A DNA stretch of 64,000 bases from Chloracidobacterium validum (GTDB lineage: Bacteria; Acidobacteriota; Blastocatellia; Chloracidobacteriales; Chloracidobacteriaceae), in contig NZ_CP072648.1 of the NCBI RefSeq assembly GCF_018304825.1, positions 1,967,501-2,031,500 of the forward strand, in the 5' to 3' direction. The notes under the pieces were generated by a model, which was not told the origin of the DNA, did not search any database, and saw only the letters and a list, made by a program, of their open reading frames with translations. This document shows positions 42,409 through 53,361 of the stretch, piece after piece. Both the position numbers and the translations under genes were made by a program. Numbering within the stretch: the stretch's first letter is position 1; each line of letters starts with the position of its first letter.

Positions 42409-42696
42409 GGTTCATTCCCTCGGTGGCAACGATGACTGGCATGCCAAGCGTCATCAGATTTCCCTGGACCCATGCGCCGATATGAGAGCCTGTTTGACCG
42501 TGGCCAACGCAAAGCATAGCACAAGTCACACGCCGGCCAATGACGCAATACAGCACGAAGCAAAAGCGTGACTGGAGAAAGCTGCCTGCCACCGCAGATG
42601 CGCCCTGCCTGACATTTCGGTACAATCAAAGTCAGCCGTTTTGCGACTTGCCTGGTTGTGACCAGCCCACCTCAGACCTGGAAGGAAATCCGCCCT

Positions 42697-43767
42697 ATGC
42701 CGACGCCGCCTACCACCGCCGATGCCGCGTGCCTGAGCTTCCCCAGCGACCTTGACGGCGCGTCCCCCACCATGGATGACCTGCCCAGCGAGTTTCCCGG
42801 AGAAGAGGGTTTGCCTAACGAGTTTCACGCCCTGTTCGCCATGCTCCTGATGGAGACGTTTTGCCCGACAACCTTCCCCCCTGACCGCGTCTTCAGCGTG
42901 CTGGACATGTACCTTTACTTTCCGTACCAGGGCAAGACACGAGGCTTTCGTCCCGACTGGTTTGGCGTCGTTGACGTGCCGGCGCTGTACGAGGGGTATC
43001 GGCCGCGCCAGAGCTATGTGACGGCGGTGGAAGGCAAACCACCCTTGATCATTGCCGAGGCACTGTCAAAGGGAACGGCACGCAATGACCTCGGGCGCGG
43101 GGCCTGGCCACCGGAAGGTGCGCCCCGGAAGTGGGATGTCTATGAGCGTGTGCTGCGGATTCCCTACTACGTGACCATTGACTATGAGACGGAGGACGTG
43201 CGGTTCTTTCAGCATGACGGAACCCGCTTGGTGGAAGTGGAAACACCCAATGGACGGCTGTGGATGCCTGAAGCCGGGTTGTGGGTCGGTCGGTGGCAGG
43301 GGGTGTACCGCGGACTCGAAACCGTCTGGGTACGCTTTTTTGACCCGGATGGGGCCGTGATACCGACATGGGCGGAGCGGACAGCCGCCGAGCGAGCCGA
43401 CAAGGCGGTCGCGCAGCAAGTTGCCGAGGAAGAGCGACGACAACGCGAAGCTGCCCAGCTTGCCGCCGAGGAAGAGCGACGACAACGCGAAGCTGCCCAG
43501 CTTGCCGCTGAGGAAGAGCGACGACAACGCGAAGCTGCCCAGCTTGCCGCTGAGGAAGAGCGACGGCAACGCGAAGCTGCCCAGCTTGCTGCTGAGGAAG
43601 AGCGACGGCAACGCGAAGCTGCCCAGCTTGCCGCTGAGGAAGAGCGACGGCAACGCGAGGCTGCCCAGCTTGCCGCCGAGGAAGAGCGGCGGCAAAAAGA
43701 AGCCTTCCTACAGGAAACTGAGAAACTGAGACGAAAATTGCGCGAACTTGGTGTCGAGCCGGATTAG
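42697..43767 (+). CDS. Uma2 family protein with C-terminal repeat coiled coil
   Basis: About 356 residues from ATG 42697 (GGAAGGA upstream). The Uma2 (DUF820) PD-(D/E)xK-type domain spans about 40-215. The putative active-site strand PDWFGVVDV, IIAEALSK and RKWDVYERVLRIPYY keep D, E and K residues, unlike the Uma2 protein at 10962, so activity is plausible. The C-terminal third is a charged coiled coil of seven 14-residue units (EEERRQREAAQLAA), encoded by a tandem DNA repeat. Convergent with pafA. Nuclease function is inferred from family fold only. Confidence 0.85.
   Translation: MPTPPTTADAACLSFPSDLDGASPTMDDLPSEFPGEEGLPNEFHALFAMLLMETFCPTTFPPDRVFSVLDMYLYFPYQGKTRGFRPDWFGVVDVPALYEGYRPRQSYVTAVEGKPPLIIAEALSKGTARNDLGRGAWPPEGAPRKWDVYERVLRIPYYVTIDYETEDVRFFQHDGTRLVEVETPNGRLWMPEAGLWVGRWQGVYRGLETVWVRFFDPDGAVIPTWAERTAAERADKAVAQQVAEEERRQREAAQLAAEEERRQREAAQLAAEEERRQREAAQLAAEEERRQREAAQLAAEEERRQREAAQLAAEEERRQREAAQLAAEEERRQKEAFLQETEKLRRKLRELGVEPD
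43426..43701 (+). repeat. tandem 42-bp repeat in the Uma2 coiled-coil gene
   Basis: Six full 42-base units plus one divergent partial unit. Each full unit encodes the same 14 residues; units differ mainly at silent third positions. Being a multiple of three, changes in copy number would keep the frame, so the coil length could vary by slippage. Confidence 0.95.
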
Positions 43768-43836: not shown

Positions 43837-45543
43837 TTATCGAGTCGGCGTGGTCGCCGGATCGAGCAGGGCTTCGCTCAGGACACGTCCAACAGCACCA
43901 TTCGGCATCATGACGCCGAGTAACATCGTCAAGGTCGGCGCAATGTCGGACGGGCTGGCTTCCGTCAGATACCGGCCCGGACGCAACCCACGCCCCATGA
44001 GGATGACCGGAACGTGGGTATCATAGGGATATGGCGTTCCGTGGGTGGTCGCTGAGGTGTATTCCTCCTCGGAGAAGAAACAAAACGGTTCAGGCACCAG
44101 AAACACATCGCCGCTGCGCTGTGGGTGAAACGCCATTTGTACTCGCTGTGCCAGCGTCGTGCGCGGCAACCCGCCGGATAGAATCTGCGTGCGCGTAAAG
44201 GCTGCCGCCACACCATTCACCGTCAATGCCGCTTCTGCCGCGACCCGTTCCACTTCTGAACGGTCAAGCTTTTTCTCCGCCAGCGTTTTGAGGTCAAAGT
44301 AAACCGATTCCGCCGAAAAGCCCGCAAACCACTGACCGGCGCCAAACCTGGCATCCAATGCGCGCTTGATGGCGACGGCAATCTTCTCAAAGGAAACCCG
44401 TTGGCTGCTGAGTCGCTGACGCTGGGCATATTCCGGCACTGGCGATACACCATGGTCAGAGGTCAGAATAACCAACGTCTGGTCAAGCCCAACCTTTTGG
44501 TCAATCAAGTCTAGCAAGCGAGCCAGCGTTTGATCGGTCCGAACCGTCATATCCAGCACTTCGTGGCTATTTGGCCCAAAGGCATGCCCAAGAATATCGT
44601 TTGCCGAAAAGCTGATGGACAGCACGTCGGGAATGGCATCGCCCCCAAGCTTTTCGTGTTCAATCGCCGCTGCCGCGAAGTCCACCAGGAAGTCATTGGC
44701 CCAGGGCGTCATCGTGAACTCGTCGTAAAAACGCGCGTTGGGCCGGTCGCCGCGCCCGACGACATGGGGGAAGGATGACCCGCCCCCGGCAAAGCGGCCT
44801 TCGTATGGCACGTCGTCAGCATCGCAACGGGCATAGGCGCTTTCCGGGAGTAACTTTTCCCAGGCTTTCCCGAACCATTGGTCAGGCAGCCGGCGGTTGT
44901 TGAAGGATGCCACCCAAGTGGGGAGTTCCTTCATGTAGTATGTGCTCGTTTGCATCTGGCCACGTTTGCTATCGAACCAGTAGGCAGCGTCGGCAGCGCG
45001 ACCGGCTGGCAGAATCGCCGCGCGATTCTTGAGCGAGATGCCAATGACCTTGGACTGCCCTCCGGTCGCGGATTTGAGTTCATCTCCAAGGGTTGACACT
45101 AGCAACCGGCTGGGGGAAGCCCCCTTCCCCTCTGGAACACCGGCCGTCGTGTCATCCGTGATGCTCTCCACAGATTTACCAGTTTCCCGGTCATACCACT
45201 TGTTGCCAATGATGCCATCCACGGCTGGGACGGAACCCGTCATAACCACGCCGTGACCTGGTGCTGTATAGGTACAAGCGTGCAGATAATGAGCATTGGT
45301 AAAGTAAGCGCCCTTGGTTTTGAGGCGATTGAAGCCCTTGCTGCTAAACAGATCAGCAAACCGCTCGAGGTAATCAGCGCGGAGTTGATCGACCACAATC
45401 CCGACGACGAGCCGGTAGGCAGGCGACGCCGGACGCGCTCGGTGTGAAGCGCAGGAAGCCGGTGCTGGCTGCCCGAGAAGTGGCAAGATGGCACTGGCCA
45501 GCATCAGCCCGGCGGTAAGGGTTCGATAGGGTAAAAAACGCAT
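43837..45543 (-). CDS. PafA-type alkaline phosphatase
   Basis: 568 residues, signal peptide about 1-25, so periplasmic or secreted. It removes phosphate from many phosphoesters. The threonine nucleophile lies in TYTAPGHGVVMTGS, followed by IIGNKWYDRETG, whose Asn fits the PafA oxyanion residue, and SLKNRAAILPAG, whose K-x-R matches the PafA Lys-Arg pair. Metal ligands include VVDQLRADYLERF, SANDILGHAFG and TSDHGVSPVPEY. This distinguishes it from PhoA (serine nucleophile). AAGGAAACTCA precedes the ATG. The palindrome at 45617 lies upstream. Confidence 0.92.
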   Translation of the reverse strand: MRFLPYRTLTAGLMLASAILPLLGQPAPASCASHRARPASPAYRLVVGIVVDQLRADYLERFADLFSSKGFNRLKTKGAYFTNAHYLHACTYTAPGHGVVMTGSVPAVDGIIGNKWYDRETGKSVESITDDTTAGVPEGKGASPSRLLVSTLGDELKSATGGQSKVIGISLKNRAAILPAGRAADAAYWFDSKRGQMQTSTYYMKELPTWVASFNNRRLPDQWFGKAWEKLLPESAYARCDADDVPYEGRFAGGGSSFPHVVGRGDRPNARFYDEFTMTPWANDFLVDFAAAAIEHEKLGGDAIPDVLSISFSANDILGHAFGPNSHEVLDMTVRTDQTLARLLDLIDQKVGLDQTLVILTSDHGVSPVPEYAQRQRLSSQRVSFEKIAVAIKRALDARFGAGQWFAGFSAESVYFDLKTLAEKKLDRSEVERVAAEAALTVNGVAAAFTRTQILSGGLPRTTLAQRVQMAFHPQRSGDVFLVPEPFCFFSEEEYTSATTHGTPYPYDTHVPVILMGRGLRPGRYLTEASPSDIAPTLTMLLGVMMPNGAVGRVLSEALLDPATTPTR

Positions 45544-45823: not shown

Positions 45824-48421
45824 ATGAGCGCGACTGCAACTGCCGCGGTTACCCCAGCCAAACGCCAAGAGATTGTGAACCGGCATGCCATCCTCGAAGC
45901 CATTCGAGGCATTTCGGCCATTGAAGAACTCGTCGAGCATGAGCCAGGCCATGGCTACAAGTTTGGCGTGGATTTGGAAGTCGCCATTTACGGACGCAAC
46001 TACGGCCCCGGCAAAAAAGTCGGACCGTATATACGGATGTATGACTATCCACCCGGACTGGAGATTGTTCACCAAGGCGATTGGGATACCAACACCTTCT
46101 ACATCATCGTTTCTGGCGCGGCTGAAGTGTTTGTGGCGGGCGTCACCAATCCGGTGGCGACCTTTGAGCCAGGCAAGCCCTTTGGCGAAATGGGGGTGTT
46201 GGCCGGCGTACCGCGCAGCGCGACCGTGATTGCCCACCGGCAGCGGGGTGCGCGCGTGCTTGAAGTGCAGCGCCCGGCGCTGCGGGTGCTCCGCAAACTC
46301 AAGAAGTTTGGCGCGGCACTCGACATTACCTACCGCAACAATGGGCGGGCAGCGGCTGCCAACCAGCTTCAGATTTCAGATGACCTCAAGCAAAAAATCG
46401 CTGAGATTGCTGAGTTTCGGTTGGTGGCGCGCGGCCATGTGCTGGCTAGTGAGGCCGAACCCGTCCACAACTTGGTCATCATCCGTGATGGGTGGGTCAA
46501 ACGGATTGGTCAAGCCCAGCAGGGTGAAACGGCTGACTACCTGGGACCAGGCTACATCCTTGGGTTCAACGCTTTGACCACCCGCGGCGCGCGCTTTCCG
46601 TACCGTGCCGTCGCCATGAGCCGAACCGAGTTGCTCGAAGTGCCAGTGGAAGCTCTTTACCGTGACCAACAACTCCTTGAAGGGGTGAAGGCGGCCCTGG
46701 GCGCGGCCGGTGACATTGGGACGCCACTTCAACCCACGAAAGCGCTAGCGTTCAACCCAGCGGTCAAAGCAGCGCAGGAGCGGATCCTTGACCGCGGGCT
46801 AGCCGATGCCAACAACCTGCTCCTGATGGATATGGACCTGTGCATCCGCTGCGGCAACTGCTCCCTGGCCTGCCATGAAATCCACGGACATTCCCGACTC
46901 AAGCGAACGGGCATTCATGTTTTGCGCCCACAGACGCCCACCCACGCCAAGCTTGACCAATCGCTCCTGATGCCGGCGGTATGCCTGCACTGTAAGGACC
47001 CGGAGTGCCTGACCGGCTGCCCAACTGGAGCCATTGCGCGCTTTGAAGGCGGGCAGGTGGACATCATCCCAAGCCTGTGCATCGGTTGCAGCGATTGCGC
47101 GACGCAATGCCCCTACAACGCCATTTCACTCATTCCACGCAGCGAACTCAAAAAGTCCACGCCGACCAAAGCCGCTCCGGCCAAGGTGGCGGCGCCTTCC
47201 AAGAATGGCAAGAGCGCGCCAACCAAAGACACCGATGCAAGCCATGAAGCGTTTGATCCCCTCGCTGCCTTTGGCCTGCGTTTCGACCCAAAGCCGAACC
47301 CGGTGACCCAAGGCGAAGACTTGGTCGCGATTAAGTGCAACCTGTGCAATAACACGCCGCTCAACCCCAAGGACCAAACCGGCAAGCCGGTCTATGCCAC
47401 GCACAAACACAACTGCGAAGAAAACTGTCCGACCGGTGCGCTCAAGCGCGTCAAACCCAACCAGTACTTCAACGAGATTGCCCAGATTCACGGCCCGGCT
47501 TTTCGACGGGTTGGCGAGATGATTGTCGGGAATCGGTTTGGCCACGCCGACCGCGCCAAGACTCTGGCGCATGTGCTTGGCGTGACGCTCACCCTGTTGC
47601 TCTGCGGGGCCACGATGGCCGGCATCGTGCAGTACGGTCTTGGCACACCGCTCCTTCGGTCAGATTGGTTCAACTTTCGGTGGATTACCGGGCTGGTGGG
47701 CTTGGCTGGGATCATCATCGTCATGCTTTACCCGGTCCGGCGCCAAATGTGGCGGCGGCGGGGCGGGGCGCTCAAAACCTGGATGCTCTCGCACACCTAC
47801 GCCGGCGTGATTGCCGGCATCGTCCTCCTCCTCCACGGCGGAACCAACCTGGGGGGCGCAGTCACGGCGGCACTCATGATTTCATTTGATTTGGTGATCT
47901 TGACTGGATTGATCGGTATTTTGCTCTACCAAATCGGTCCGCGCCTGCTCACCAAGATTGAGGGTGAACCCCTGTTGGCGGAAGACCTGATGCGGCGGCG
48001 CAGTGAGCTTTATCGGGAAATTGCCGACTTGACCGTGACGGCCCAGGAGCAAGCTGAAAAAGAAGGGCGCGGCGCGCAGTTTGCCCAAACGTTTCTTCCG
48101 GCGCGTGACCGGGTGATTGCCACGCTTCTCTCGCTTGGTTTCCTATTCCGACAATACATCCGCCGGGAATCACTGGATGACCTGCTGGCCGATGTTCGCC
48201 GACGGTTTGATGGTACCATTGCCAAACAACCCCACCCAAACGAGCGGGACGTCATGCGGCAAATTGTCGAAGCCGGCGCGACCATTCGGCGGATTGACGC
48301 GCTGCTTTACATTCATCGGGCGCTGAAAATCTGGCTTCCGCCGCACGTCATTTCAACCTCGGTGATGCTGGCCCTGCTGGTCGTGCACATCCTTCAGGTG
48401 GTGTATTACCTGTGGCGCTAA
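45824..48421 (+). CDS. cyclic-nucleotide-binding / polyferredoxin / membrane fusion protein
   Basis: About 865 residues from ATG 45824 (GGAAAG upstream). First CNB domain, about 65-160, keeps the phosphate-binding cassette (FGEMGVLAGVPRSAT, Glu and Arg present); a second (about 190-290) is degenerate. Ferredoxin region: C340-C343-C346-C350, C387-C390-C395-C399, C419-C422-C425-C429 and C505-C508/C531-C535, 16 cysteines suited to four [4Fe-4S] clusters, as in DmsB/NrfC-type subunits. Then membrane helices at about 581, 621, 658, 682 and 841, with histidines (SHTY, LLHGG, PPHVIS, VVHIL) that could bind b-type haem. It probably moves electrons between soluble donors and the membrane under nucleotide control. 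It precedes its partner by 80 bases. Confidence 0.88.
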   Translation: MSATATAAVTPAKRQEIVNRHAILEAIRGISAIEELVEHEPGHGYKFGVDLEVAIYGRNYGPGKKVGPYIRMYDYPPGLEIVHQGDWDTNTFYIIVSGAAEVFVAGVTNPVATFEPGKPFGEMGVLAGVPRSATVIAHRQRGARVLEVQRPALRVLRKLKKFGAALDITYRNNGRAAAANQLQISDDLKQKIAEIAEFRLVARGHVLASEAEPVHNLVIIRDGWVKRIGQAQQGETADYLGPGYILGFNALTTRGARFPYRAVAMSRTELLEVPVEALYRDQQLLEGVKAALGAAGDIGTPLQPTKALAFNPAVKAAQERILDRGLADANNLLLMDMDLCIRCGNCSLACHEIHGHSRLKRTGIHVLRPQTPTHAKLDQSLLMPAVCLHCKDPECLTGCPTGAIARFEGGQVDIIPSLCIGCSDCATQCPYNAISLIPRSELKKSTPTKAAPAKVAAPSKNGKSAPTKDTDASHEAFDPLAAFGLRFDPKPNPVTQGEDLVAIKCNLCNNTPLNPKDQTGKPVYATHKHNCEENCPTGALKRVKPNQYFNEIAQIHGPAFRRVGEMIVGNRFGHADRAKTLAHVLGVTLTLLLCGATMAGIVQYGLGTPLLRSDWFNFRWITGLVGLAGIIIVMLYPVRRQMWRRRGGALKTWMLSHTYAGVIAGIVLLLHGGTNLGGAVTAALMISFDLVILTGLIGILLYQIGPRLLTKIEGEPLLAEDLMRRRSELYREIADLTVTAQEQAEKEGRGAQFAQTFLPARDRVIATLLSLGFLFRQYIRRESLDDLLADVRRRFDGTIAKQPHPNERDVMRQIVEAGATIRRIDALLYIHRALKIWLPPHVISTSVMLALLVVHILQVVYYLWR

Positions 48422-48501
48422 CCTTCCCTACTCGCTTGCGTTCTTTTGCGCCTTGCCCATCGGCACGCAACCTCTGCTAGCCCCCCGGTCTGGAAAACAC
48501 C

Positions 48502-51500
48502 ATGGCGAAACTCAGCCGCTTTACGATTCAGCGCAAAGACCTCGTTGATAAAGGCGACCTCGTTCTGGAACTTGAGGGCTTGGTCATTGGCTCGCAGTCC
48601 GACTGTGACCTTCTGCTCAATCATCCCACCGTGTCACGTATCCACGCCGGTATCCGCGAAGTGGAAGGCCGGTGGTGGTTGACGAACCTCTCCAGCACGA
48701 ATGGCACACAGGTCAACGGCGCGCTGGTTGAAACGGTTGAACTTCAGCCGGACGACATCATTCGGATCGGCATTTTTGTCTTGCGCCCAACCTTTGCGGA
48801 TGGCGTCCTGACGCTCGATGTGGATCGCCAGGTGGACGCCTACGCGGCTGCCGAGCGCACGACGCGCCTGTTGGGCGATCCCATCCAAGCCACGACGCAG
48901 GGCAAGACGGCGCTCCTACCCAAACTGACCGGGTACTTACAGCAACGCGGACTCACCCAACCCTTACGCGGACAGACTCAGCAACTGCAACCGAGTCAGC
49001 AACGACCAGAAGCCCCGTCCACGCCGCCGCCAGCCGCAGAACCGCCAGCGCCACCATCGGCAACGGGACTGCTTCAGGCCGCTCGGTTGCAACGCGGCAT
49101 GACCGGGCTACTGACCTCGATCCTGGCGCTGCCGGAGCAAGAGCAGAAGCGTTTCCAGCAGGCGATGAATGTCTTCTGGGAACGGCGCAAAGCTGCCATC
49201 AAGGGCGAGCAGAAGCTCGATGAGTATTCCCCGCTTGAACCACGGGAACTCCCCGAAGAACTCAAAAAGCACAACCTCCACCTGGGGAAAAAGCGCTTCA
49301 ACTGGATTCCGACCAATGACCTCATTCGCCCGTGGCCGCGTGGGTATCTCTATGTGTTCGGCGCGGTGGCAACGGTGCTGTGCATCCTGGCTTTCTTCCT
49401 CTGGGAAGCTGCCTACTTGCCGGGCGAAACTTCTCATCCGCATGCGCTGCCAGTTGGCAAATTGCCGGAACCGGTTCGGCAGCGCCTCGACTTAAAGTTG
49501 GTCGCCAACGCTCCGGTGGAAAACAATTGTAGCGCCTGCCATGCGGCGGCAACCTCGATGCAGAACAAGTGCGTGGACTGCCACGAAACCAGCCATTTCA
49601 ACACGACGGTTATCGCCAAGCATGAGGAAGCCAAAATCCAGTGCGTGGACTGCCACACCGAACACAAGGGCGCGGATTTCCGCCCCGGTATCGTGTCGCG
49701 CAGCATGTGCATTGACTGTCACCGGGATGCGCCAACCCATCCCAAGGCCGTCAGCCTCAAGGACGGCACACCGTTGCGCGAACCGCACCGTGGCTCGTTT
49801 GGCTATCCGGTCGAAAACGGTGTGTGGTCGTGGCAGCATCCCATGAACCCTAAGTGGGACAAGCTCTTCAGCGAGAGTAAAACGCCGCTCGATCCCTCGA
49901 CCAAGTTTCATCTGGTTCATGCGGCGGTGGCGCCCTCCACGAGCGCGTGGAAGTGCAGCGAGTGCCATGATGGGTCATTCGCCAAGGGCGCGGCGGATGT
50001 AAAAGTCATCAACCGCGACAAATGCGCCGTATGCCATGGCCAGGCGTACGTCCAGACGGCTTCGCTCAAAGACCTCGATACCGATGCGCTCCGGCTGGGC
50101 ATTGACTGCAACTCCTGTCACGGGCAGCACCCACAGTCGCAAACCTTGACGGCGGCCCGTCGCCCGGCCGGGAGCGGGCCCGAGCCGGTCGTGTTTACCA
50201 AAGACCGGGTTTACCGGGGTGGCAAAGACTGGCAGTGGACCAGCCTGGCCGCGAAGTTTGGCGGCTTCACCCTTGGCAACTGGGCACTCTTTTTCAGCCT
50301 CATTCCGCTGACCGGAATCGGGTTTCTCACCTTTGACACGCTGCGCAAGCGCCGTGAGCAGGCCACGCTCAAAGGCAATACCCTTGACCTAGCCAACCGA
50401 CACCGGAAGTTTACCGACACGCGCTATGCTGAACGGTGGGAGTCCCAGGTCCAAATCGAACGCGCGCGGACTTCCGCCCGGGAAAACCCGGTTCCACACC
50501 CGGTCATCAACTACGAAACCTGCATTGGCTGCCACGCCTGCATTCTCGCCTGTCCGCAGGACGTGCTGGGGTTTGACGAGCAAGAGCACCACGCCATCGT
50601 CGTCAACCTCGAACAGTGCATGGAAGACACCGGATGCCAGCAAGCGTGTCCGACGGTTCCGCAGTCTTGCGTTCTCATCAATACCCGCCAAACCATTCGG
50701 GAAGCGCCCAAGCCGTTGCGCAAGGGGGCCAACGAGGGATTTGAAACAGAAAGCGCCACAGGTATCTACCTCGTTGGGGATGTCTCCGGCGTGCCACTCA
50801 TTCGGAACGCCATCAAGGAGGGCCGCCTGGCCATCGAACGGATTGCCGACAAGCTCAAGGCTGAAGGGCCGGTGGCCGGCGCGGATTACGACGTTGCCAT
50901 CGTTGGCATCGGGCCGGGCGGTATTTCAGCGGTGGCGCGGGCGGCTGAACTCGGGTTGCGCTACGTCGCACTCGAACAGGGCCGCAGGTATTCGACCATT
51001 GCCGAGAAATACCCGGCCGGCAAATACGTGGCTTTCAATCCGTTCAATCCATCTGACCCACCGTTGGGTGCGGTTCGACTTGACGGACCGGGCGATCTCA
51101 AAGAGGTCATGCTTGGGTGGTGGGATGAAACCGTTGAAAAACTTGGGTTGGTCATCAACGAATACGAAGGCTGCAAGGAAATCACCCGTGAAAACGACTA
51201 TTTCATTGTCAAAACGACCAAAAACGCCCATGGGTACAAAGCCCGCAAGGTCCTGCTTGCCATCGGCAACGCTGGTGAGCCACGCAAACTGGGGTGCCCC
51301 GGAGAAGTCGAAGGACGAGTCCTGTATCGGCTACAAGACCCGAGCGCTTTCAAGGGCAAACATATCGTGGTTGTCGGCGCGGGCAACTCCGCCGTCGAAG
51401 CGGCCGTGGACCTCACCGGACAGCGTCAGCCCGATGGAACGGTCAAGTTTCCACCCGATGCCGAGGCAAACCACGTCACACTCGTCATCCGGTCAGACTT

Positions 51501-51756
51501 TCCGAAAGACCTGACGCTTGAAAACAAAATGTGGGTTTATTACTGCATGGACGCCGGGCGAATTAAGGCGTACTTCGGGGCCGGCATCCGCGAGATCACT
51601 GAGCGGGAGGTGGTGCTCGAGAAGGTACGTGACAAGTCTGAAATCGCGCGAATTCCAAACGATTACGTGTTTGCGCTGATTGGGAGCATTGCGCCCAAGG
51701 AGTTTCTCACCAAGATCGGGGTCAAATACGCCGGGGATGACAAGAAGAAACGGTAG
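48502..51756 (+). CDS. FHA / heptahaem cytochrome c / ferredoxin / flavin oxidoreductase fusion
   Basis: 1084 residues. FHA domain about 20-95 (SRIHAGI, LSSTNGTQVNG). Pro-rich linker about 145-200. Membrane helix one near 281-304. Seven CxxCH sites with first cysteines at 343, 357, 381, 403, 485, 508 and 536, so seven c-type haems are expected outside the membrane. Helix two near 592-613. A ferredoxin-like CIGCHACILACP begins at 674, followed by CMEDTGCQQACP. Two Rossmann motifs, IVGIGPGGIS (about 797) and VVGAGNSAVEAA (about 957), give an FAD/NAD(P) oxidoreductase. FHA recognises phosphothreonine, so phosphorylation may gate it. The inferred role is electron passage between NAD(P)H and periplasmic haems. 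Confidence 0.9.
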   Translation: MAKLSRFTIQRKDLVDKGDLVLELEGLVIGSQSDCDLLLNHPTVSRIHAGIREVEGRWWLTNLSSTNGTQVNGALVETVELQPDDIIRIGIFVLRPTFADGVLTLDVDRQVDAYAAAERTTRLLGDPIQATTQGKTALLPKLTGYLQQRGLTQPLRGQTQQLQPSQQRPEAPSTPPPAAEPPAPPSATGLLQAARLQRGMTGLLTSILALPEQEQKRFQQAMNVFWERRKAAIKGEQKLDEYSPLEPRELPEELKKHNLHLGKKRFNWIPTNDLIRPWPRGYLYVFGAVATVLCILAFFLWEAAYLPGETSHPHALPVGKLPEPVRQRLDLKLVANAPVENNCSACHAAATSMQNKCVDCHETSHFNTTVIAKHEEAKIQCVDCHTEHKGADFRPGIVSRSMCIDCHRDAPTHPKAVSLKDGTPLREPHRGSFGYPVENGVWSWQHPMNPKWDKLFSESKTPLDPSTKFHLVHAAVAPSTSAWKCSECHDGSFAKGAADVKVINRDKCAVCHGQAYVQTASLKDLDTDALRLGIDCNSCHGQHPQSQTLTAARRPAGSGPEPVVFTKDRVYRGGKDWQWTSLAAKFGGFTLGNWALFFSLIPLTGIGFLTFDTLRKRREQATLKGNTLDLANRHRKFTDTRYAERWESQVQIERARTSARENPVPHPVINYETCIGCHACILACPQDVLGFDEQEHHAIVVNLEQCMEDTGCQQACPTVPQSCVLINTRQTIREAPKPLRKGANEGFETESATGIYLVGDVSGVPLIRNAIKEGRLAIERIADKLKAEGPVAGADYDVAIVGIGPGGISAVARAAELGLRYVALEQGRRYSTIAEKYPAGKYVAFNPFNPSDPPLGAVRLDGPGDLKEVMLGWWDETVEKLGLVINEYEGCKEITRENDYFIVKTTKNAHGYKARKVLLAIGNAGEPRKLGCPGEVEGRVLYRLQDPSAFKGKHIVVVGAGNSAVEAAVDLTGQRQPDGTVKFPPDAEANHVTLVIRSDFPKDLTLENKMWVYYCMDAGRIKAYFGAGIREITEREVVLEKVRDKSEIARIPNDYVFALIGSIAPKEFLTKIGVKYAGDDKKKR

Positions 51757-51910: not shown

Positions 51911-53299
51911 CTAAACGGATGGCTGGCGGAGGAGTACCGGCGGTAAAACGGGTGATTCCGCGAGCTTGGTCACGCGCACCCGCGCCACCCGCCGCCGCTC
52001 AACCTGCTCGACCCGAAACTCATACCCGTTATAACGGACGACATCGCCCGAATCGAGGAGTCGCCCAGCTTGCATCATGAGAAAGCCGGCCAGCGTAGCG
52101 TAGTCATCGGATTCAGGTAAGTTCAGGCCAAACTTTCGGTTGACTTCACGGATGGCAATCGTGCCATCGAAAATGAGGGTTCCGTCTGGCTCATGCCAGA
52201 CCATCACTTCCTCATCGGTTACGTCGTGTTCGTCGCGGATGTCACCAACAAGCTGCTCAAGAATGTCTTCGAGCGTCACGATGCCCTCAACGGTGCCATG
52301 CTCATCCACAACCACCCCAAGCGGCGACTGTGCCGCCCGAAGCTGGCGGAGAGCTTCTTCGAGATGGGCCGTGTCAGGGATAAAGACTGGCCGGCGGAGC
52401 ATTTCCTGCACTGAAAGCGCACTCTGGTGCGTATCCTTATGCACGAGGCGGTGGAGAATATCCTTGACGTGAACAAAACCCACGATGTTATCTGGATGAG
52501 CATCGTGAACCGGCAGCCGGGAATAACCTGACTCACATAACGTCTGCAAGATTTCATCCGAGCTGGCCTTCAGTGGAAGACTAATGACTTCTGGCCGCGG
52601 CACCATGACCTCGCGCACAACCGTGTCGCTGAAATGAAAGACATTGCGGATCAGTTCTTGCTCATCGGCCTTGAGGTGTCCGCTCTGGTGGGATAAGGCG
52701 ACGAGTTGCTGAATTTCTTCTTGCGTATAGGCCGCCGCGTGATGCCCGCCACGCACCGGAACGACACCGAATAAACGCACGGTTTGGCTTCCGGCACGAT
52801 CCAGCAGCCAAATGAAGGGCCTGAAGACTCGGCAAAAGATCGCCAAGGGAAGTGCAACGGCAAGAGCGATCTGCTCTGAACGCGCCAGTGCCAATGACTT
52901 GGGCGCAAGCTCGCCAAAGACAATGTGCAGGGTGGTGATCAGGGCAAAGGCCACGGCCACCGCCAAGGCATGCGCAGAGACAAACAACCACAGCCCCCCC
53001 GGTATGAAAGCGGAAAGCCAGCTTTCAAATATCCGTGAGAAGGTCAGCTCGCCAACCCACCCCAAAGCCAAGCTGGCGAGCGTAATCCCAAACTGGGTTG
53101 CGGAAATCGTCCCGTCAATGTCATCCAACAAACGCAGCGCCACCGCGGCCCGCCGACTCCCACCGGCGGACAGCGAGAGCAAGCGTGGACGCCGCACCAC
53201 GACCAGCGCAAACTCAGCCGCCACGAAGAACGCATTCGCGGCCACGAGTAGCCCAACACTCAAGAGTTTGAGGACGACAATGGGAACGGAGTCATCCAT
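51911..53299 (-). CDS. CorC/CNNM-family divalent cation transporter (HlyC/CorC-like)
   Basis: About 462 residues from ATG 53299; a TTG at 53356 is an alternative. N-terminal CNNM/DUF21 membrane domain (about 1-180; VAANAFFVAAEFALVVVRR, QFGITLASLALGWVGE), a pair of CBS domains (about 200-330; VMVPRPEVISLPLKA, VVDEHGTVEGIVTLEDILEQ) that bind Mg-ATP, and the C-terminal CorC_HlyC domain (about 340-440, ending in VRVTKL). It probably exports or regulates Mg2+. carD lies 62 bases upstream on the same strand. Confidence 0.93.
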   Translation of the reverse strand: MDDSVPIVVLKLLSVGLLVAANAFFVAAEFALVVVRRPRLLSLSAGGSRRAAVALRLLDDIDGTISATQFGITLASLALGWVGELTFSRIFESWLSAFIPGGLWLFVSAHALAVAVAFALITTLHIVFGELAPKSLALARSEQIALAVALPLAIFCRVFRPFIWLLDRAGSQTVRLFGVVPVRGGHHAAAYTQEEIQQLVALSHQSGHLKADEQELIRNVFHFSDTVVREVMVPRPEVISLPLKASSDEILQTLCESGYSRLPVHDAHPDNIVGFVHVKDILHRLVHKDTHQSALSVQEMLRRPVFIPDTAHLEEALRQLRAAQSPLGVVVDEHGTVEGIVTLEDILEQLVGDIRDEHDVTDEEVMVWHEPDGTLIFDGTIAIREVNRKFGLNLPESDDYATLAGFLMMQAGRLLDSGDVVRYNGYEFRVEQVERRRVARVRVTKLAESPVLPPVLLRQPSV

Positions 53300-53361
53300 T
53301 CCTAACCAGCCTGGATCAGTGGAATCGTCAACTGACGCAGCGGTGACAGGGGACAACAGTC

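Follow-up and report, generated by a model that had tools for sequence, protein, structure and literature searches.

What kind of system is encoded where two adjacent genes fuse recognition domains to a long series of redox centres? This question is raised by Chloracidobacterium validum, in a stretch of 64,000 nucleotides from contig NZ_CP072648.1 (positions 1,967,501 to 2,031,500; hereafter the window). The original prediction for positions 45824-51756, made from the letters alone, was of two large fusions that combine cyclic-nucleotide-binding (CNB) and FHA domains with a complete redox chain between cytosolic NAD(P)H and the periplasm, switched by cyclic nucleotide and phosphothreonine. Both open reading frames (ORFs), gene 1 and gene 2, were found at exactly this span, each running from an ATG to a stop codon (Table 1). 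From sequence comparisons we give a probability of roughly 60% to the reading that the pair forms an inner-membrane complex through which cytosolic NAD(P)H is connected with multihaem cytochromes of the periplasm, with electrons moving outward and the first CNB domain (CNB1) modulating the flow.

Redox centres and recognition domains of the two fusions

Pfam searches placed two cNMP_binding stretches (2.3e-25) and Fer4 families on gene 1, and FHA (4.3e-18), cytochrome c3/c7, Fer4 and Pyr_redox_3 (7.8e-27) on gene 2, in agreement with the recognition domains, additional ferredoxin and flavin/NAD(P) module first proposed. Up to four [4Fe-4S] clusters had been suggested for gene 1, and four is indeed the number indicated by 16 Cys that are invariant in 68 of 68 aligned sequences. 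Their order is that of the PsrB/NrfC/FdnH/HycB polyferredoxins, as in iron-sulfur (FeS) subunits of the complex iron-sulfur molybdoenzyme type. The C-terminal 300 residues of gene 1 form five transmembrane (TM) helices, for which an AlphaFold2 model reached a mean predicted local distance difference test (pLDDT) score of 88.8. As the mark of a di-haem cytochrome b we looked for two His, spaced by about 13-14 residues, in each of two TM helices, and found H657/H671 and H841/H855. These H-x13-H pairs, the classical spacing in di-haem cytochromes b, do not vary across 57 sequences, one of them a Binatota protein at 20% identity, and turn the possible b-haems into two predicted ones. Positive-inside flanks place H657 and H841 near the cytosolic side and H671 and H855 near the periplasmic side. 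In CNB1, the Glu and Arg of a ligand-competent phosphate-binding cassette are present as E122 and R131, and both are kept in 66 of 68 relatives.

Gene 2 carries seven CXXCH motifs between residues 343 and 540, as originally counted. Exactly seven non-motif His (H314, H374, H388, H429, H470, H473 and H543) are invariant in 59 sequences; one extra His for each motif suggests haems of the bis-His electron-transfer type. Profile matches of this domain included NrfB, ActA-type cytochromes and 6r2q, which we take to be MtrA of an MtrCAB complex, the database entry carrying a wrong molecule name. An eighth CXXCH, at C674, was rejected as an eighth haem site because it serves the gene 2 ferredoxin as the first of its Cys motifs; this ferredoxin contains two Cys quartets.

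The C-terminal domain of gene 2 matches YpdA/Bdr (TIGR04018, 9e-35; PDB 7a76, 4.7e-19). It was not assigned as a YpdA disulfide reductase, since it scores 119.9 bits against a cut-off of 339.9 for the curated model and the catalytic Cys is replaced by Gly (GIGPGG, as compared to GGGPCG in 7a76 and 7a7b). The absence of this Cys is consistent with a domain that passes electrons to the adjoining FeS clusters. The TrxR fold and its FAD and NAD(P) motifs are present, the ferredoxin is fused directly, and 3ab1 is among the PDB hits. In some genera (L070, L075 and L078) the gene 2 homologues have a CxxC..CxxC insertion of ~45 residues inside this domain (alignment A2, about columns 1244-1290), which resembles a zinc ribbon or rubredoxin. 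Weak matches of the FHA domain to Yop-YscD_cpl and TagH could point to type III or type VI secretion; these readings were rejected because the neighbourhood holds no secretion genes and the matches reflect the FHA fold.

Conservation of the gene pair

Relatives of gene 1 occurred in 16 of the 297 genomes of a phylum sample, all from the same class (Blastocatellia), and in 76 of the 162 genomes of that class. Every species sampled from the genus has the pair, as do dozens of other genomes. The FHA-haem gene follows gene 1 in 18/18 loci of the phylum search. Among 74 further loci, an FHA-heptahaem gene lies immediately downstream in 58 (median gap, 42 bp) and follows with an overlapping start at L132; at the remaining 15 the sequence ends before a downstream gene could appear whole. 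The two genes are thus adjacent wherever enough sequence is available, in 59 of 59 loci (L132 and the 58 scored by script), and the co-occurrence on which the original prediction had staked itself is borne out. Pairwise distances for gene 1 also correlate with those for gene 2 (r = 0.90, n = 54), a figure to which shared ancestry contributes. A role specific to photosynthesis was set aside, since related species that do not belong to the phototrophic genus commonly have the pair. A divergent second copy (L076, genome G283) has a shortened membrane domain that lacks the long cytosolic loop; the FHA-heptahaem gene still follows it, with no NAD(P)H module alongside.

The same parts also occur on other polypeptides. 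For example, a Binatota locus (L155) has three genes, encoding a CNB-FeS protein, a di-haem b protein and a multihaem c protein with a YpdA-like domain, and no FHA domain. Similarly, plasmid pMSHV of Sphingobium herbicidovorans encodes YpdA-CNB-FeS, di-haem b and FHA(weak)-TM-decahaem c proteins, with an LVIVD multihaem protein close to the module. Parts joined in different orders are the usual signature of a single complex, and they speak for association of the gene 1 and gene 2 products in one. The CNB-FeS gene was found on eleven other Sphingobium plasmids. The megaplasmid version, which stands beside an LVIVD multihaem cytochrome (e.g., NZ_CP020539.1 805892-825259, L156), offers a more tractable place for functional tests.

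Partner multihaem cytochromes

Other multihaem cytochromes, with 4, 8 or 9 haems, stand beside the pair in 36 of the 74 loci, and an LVIVD multihaem protein is present in several of these neighbourhoods. C. validum has counterparts on its second contig (C2): a 9-haem and a 4-haem gene at C2:93.3-95.3 kb, a further 9-haem gene at C2:408.5-410 kb beside an HbpS-like protein, and an LVIVD-repeat protein with 10 CXXCH motifs and an anchor-like C-terminal tail at C2:722357-726631. Directly beside the last is a gene for a 669-residue secreted protein ending in F (C2:726649-728658; both genes, L170:7358-13659). Searches returned no Pfam match for the 669-residue protein and no PDB relative for the LVIVD protein. 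The former is possibly an outer-membrane barrel, and the two together are a candidate extracellular electron conduit. Across the 162 class genomes, LVIVD and gene 1 are both present in 71 and both missing in 79, with 12 discordant (71/5/7/79). The 9-haem cytochrome, found in 91 of the 162, is not by itself a specific marker. A protein with HbpS-like (haem-degrading) domains next to 9-haem cytochromes (C2:408.5-411.9 kb, L169:10534-13907; L071:361-2538) is a conserved arrangement, seen both on the second contig of Chloracidobacterium and around gene 1 in Pyrinomonadaceae. The one class III nucleotide cyclase that we found in the genome (C2:103325-103900) lies ~8 kb from the 9-haem/4-haem cytochrome genes. 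Cytochrome c assembly proteins, which the original prediction had named as something to look for, are encoded as well.

A proposed electron path and the evidence against it

By positive-inside topology, the FeS and NAD(P)H parts are cytosolic and the c-haems lie outside, which fits the following order. NAD(P)H would reduce the FAD of the YpdA/ferredoxin-NADP reductase (FNR)-like domain of gene 2. Electrons would then move through the two [4Fe-4S] clusters of gene 2 and the four that gene 1 holds. The two stacked b-haems of gene 1 would carry them across the membrane to the seven c-haems of gene 2 on the periplasmic face. From there they could enter partner cytochromes (4-haem, 9-haem or LVIVD decahaem) and so an extracellular or periplasmic respiratory chain, with cyclic nucleotide bound at CNB1 adjusting activity. 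The order is inferred from topology and ligands; an outward direction is probable, judging by the presence of an NAD(P)H module and by the partners being secreted. Gating by cyclic nucleotide is plausible and would be limited to CNB1, the only CNB domain with an intact cassette.

Several observations weigh against this scheme. Concerning the b-haems, Foldseek with the membrane-domain model found no solved structure at E < 0.001, a sequence-profile search of the PDB gave no significant match, and Pfam cytochrome b561 (PF01292) stayed below threshold, with a best value of 4.7e-5; PF01292 appears at E<=0.1 in just 7/57 members, and the window copy scores 13.8 bits against a gathering score of 30.1. 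Since none of these comparisons gives a significant match, the two b-haems are a strong inference drawn from His spacing and stop short of proof. The model of the heptahaem domain is poor (pLDDT 66), and Foldseek with this model gave no usable match. Of the 58 loci, 12 have the NAD(P)H module as a fusion and 33 as a gene of its own close by; at the other 13, some of them on short contigs, no module was seen. With many relatives lacking an adjacent module, NAD(P)H is not a universal cytosolic partner. The complete chain first proposed is supported for C. validum as regards centres and topology, but its NAD(P)H end is optional among relatives, so that the conserved core is FeS, di-haem b and multihaem c; in other species this core may take electrons from ferredoxin.

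Both proposed switches also lost ground. CNB2 has no recognisable phosphate-binding cassette in our reading of the alignment and is probably not a nucleotide site, which leaves CNB1 as the plausible switch. Phosphothreonine recognition by FHA requires Arg, Ser and Asn contacts; in the C. validum clade Ser45 and Asn72 are kept but the Arg is replaced by Ser31. A phosphothreonine switch is therefore doubtful here, and the Binatota version has no FHA domain, although the Arg is present in 46/58 relatives. Finally, the C. validum partner cytochromes lie on another contig, away from the pair, and the Fisher p of about 3e-31 for co-occurrence of LVIVD and gene 1 is not corrected for phylogeny.

Alternatives to the proposed outward electron route

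The alternative that survives best, which we nevertheless consider unlikely, is inward flow from periplasmic or extracellular donors, through LVIVD and 9-haem cytochromes, to ferredoxin or NAD(P)+. Every part is reversible in principle, the multihaem neighbours would be the same, and TrxR-type FNRs (e.g., 3ab1) work with ferredoxin and NADP. However, such uphill transfer requires coupling to proton motive force or light, and the conserved set contains no coupling subunit (NrfD, Rnf or Nqr), nor was a donor-oxidising enzyme identified among the partners. A still less probable alternative is that the di-haem b domain reacts with menaquinone, which would make the pair an NAD(P)H/ferredoxin:quinone or quinol:cytochrome c oxidoreductase. 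NarI, FdnI and CbcL are di-haem b proteins that use quinones, and TM1 of gene 1 carries an extra, nearly invariant His (H583) that would suit such a role, but no homology to quinone-reactive families rose above threshold in Pfam, Foldseek or PDB sequence-profile searches.

The fusion of sensory domains, one type per subunit, might instead suggest a redox or ligand sensor that reports the periplasmic redox state through FHA and CNB rather than a route for bulk electrons; this is very improbable, as neither protein has an output domain (kinase, cyclase or DNA-binding) and the full redox chain and its multihaem partners are strongly conserved. Chance neighbourhood or an assembly artefact can be dismissed almost outright, because conservation across genera extends to gene order as well as sequence, and we found nothing in its favour.

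Locus and feature coordinates

The C. validum genome comprises 3.66 Mb on two contigs (2.66 and 1.00 Mb), and named relatives at 81-84% identity agree with the Chloracidobacterium type (class Blastocatellia, Acidobacteriota). Genes 1 and 2 are separated by 80 bp on the + strand and flanked on either side by opposite-strand genes, and we therefore regard them as a two-gene unit. Farther upstream, a Uma2-family protein ends in a tandem repeat with a unit of ~14 residues (EEERRQREAAQLAA).

Table 1. Positions in the window of the gene pair, its domains and nearby genes
Feature	Position	Strand	Evidence
Uma2-family protein	42658-43767
Phosphodiesterase-like protein	43837-45543	-
Gene 1, CNB-CNB-4x[4Fe-4S]-di-haem cytochrome b fusion, 865 aa	45824-48421	+	ORF, Pfam, alignment
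CNB1, residues 75-154, phosphate-binding cassette FGEM...PRSATV intact	46046-46285	+	Pfam, alignment
CNB2, about residues 195-290, degenerate cassette	46406-46693	+	second Pfam stretch, alignment reading
Four predicted [4Fe-4S] clusters, residues 340-535, HycB/PsrB/FdnH-like polyferredoxin	46841-47428	+	alignment, profile
Membrane domain, 5 TM helices, H657-x13-H671 and H841-x13-H855, plus H583	47555-48409	+	alignment, topology, AlphaFold2
Gene 2, FHA-TM-heptahaem c-TM-ferredoxin-NAD(P)H:FAD fusion, 1084 aa	48502-51756	+	ORF, Pfam
FHA domain, phosphothreonine-contact Arg replaced by Ser31	48583-48771	+	Pfam, alignment
TM helix 1, residues 283-301, in to out	49348-49404	+	topology prediction
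Periplasmic heptahaem c domain, MtrA/NrfB/ActA-like by profile	49528-50130	+	motifs, alignment, profile
TM helix 2, residues 591-609, out to in	50272-50328	+	topology prediction
Cytosolic ferredoxin, two Cys quartets, predicted 2x[4Fe-4S]	50497-50697	+	Pfam, motifs
TrxR/YpdA-like NAD(P)H-FAD domain, GIGPGG motif	50887-51732	+	Pfam, NCBIfam, PDB profile
CNNM/CorC protein	51911-53356	-

Significance and comparison with known systems

If correct, the outward-flow reading adds a class of inner-membrane electron gate that has no name so far. Such a gate would couple NAD(P)H metabolism directly to chains of multihaem cytochromes, and its own second-messenger sensor would allow the passage of electrons out of the cell (or into it) to be set post-translationally. 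A survey of wastewater genomes noted that substrates are unknown for most multihaem cytochromes of Acidobacteriota (PMC8100337). The pair is a concrete candidate for the entry point to these unexplained cytochromes. A broader proposal, which we offer tentatively, is that a cyclic-nucleotide-gated NAD(P)H:multihaem-cytochrome oxidoreductase, previously undescribed and with a b domain lacking a solved relative, serves as an electron valve at the head of extracellular electron transfer in phototrophic and soil Acidobacteriota, Binatota and Sphingobium.

As first supposed, no named system matches: no NCBIfam or Pfam family spans either architecture, and we found no description of this domain combination in the literature searched. 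The Hmc, Tmc, DsrMKJOP and QrcABCD complexes of sulfate reducers resemble the pair in running from periplasmic multihaem c through membrane b-haem/quinone subunits to FeS proteins, and the best NCBIfam match of the gene 1 FeS domain is DsrO (3e-18, far below the cut-off). However, no NrfD- or HdrD-type subunit was seen in the gene neighbourhood that is conserved around the pair; moreover, gene 1 fuses FeS to the b domain and CNB, and gene 2 adds FHA and NAD(P)H-FAD. CymA, Geobacter CbcL and other inner-membrane b/c cytochromes are likewise points at the inner membrane where electrons enter a periplasmic multihaem chain, and in CbcL di-haem b is fused to multihaem c. These are quinol dehydrogenases not known to have cytosolic FeS, NAD(P)H or sensory domains of the kinds that the C. 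validum pair carries. Alternative complex III (ACIII; ActA/ActB) gave weak profile matches to the multihaem c and polyferredoxin parts (6f0k, 6lod, 8k9e and 6btm); ACIII includes NrfD subunits and is not known to contain b-haem, CNB, FHA or NAD(P)H parts, and a separate ACIII-like cluster lies elsewhere in the C. validum genome.

YpdA/Bdr and the TrxR-type ferredoxin-NADP reductases share the fold family of the gene 2 C-terminal domain, which differs from YpdA/Bdr in its fusion to ferredoxin and multihaem c and in its Cys-to-Gly replacement. NADPH oxidases and transmembrane ferric reductases pass electrons from cytosolic NAD(P)H through FAD and two stacked b-haems to the outside. The working principle is alike, but we found no homology, and the pair adds six FeS clusters and seven c-haems as relays. 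Taken together, these comparisons suggest that the pair works like the Hmc/Dsr-type or NADPH oxidase-like transmembrane redox systems, yet by the family comparisons made it belongs to none of them, and that its most unusual features would be a di-haem b domain with no relative of solved structure, together with a built-in second-messenger sensor.

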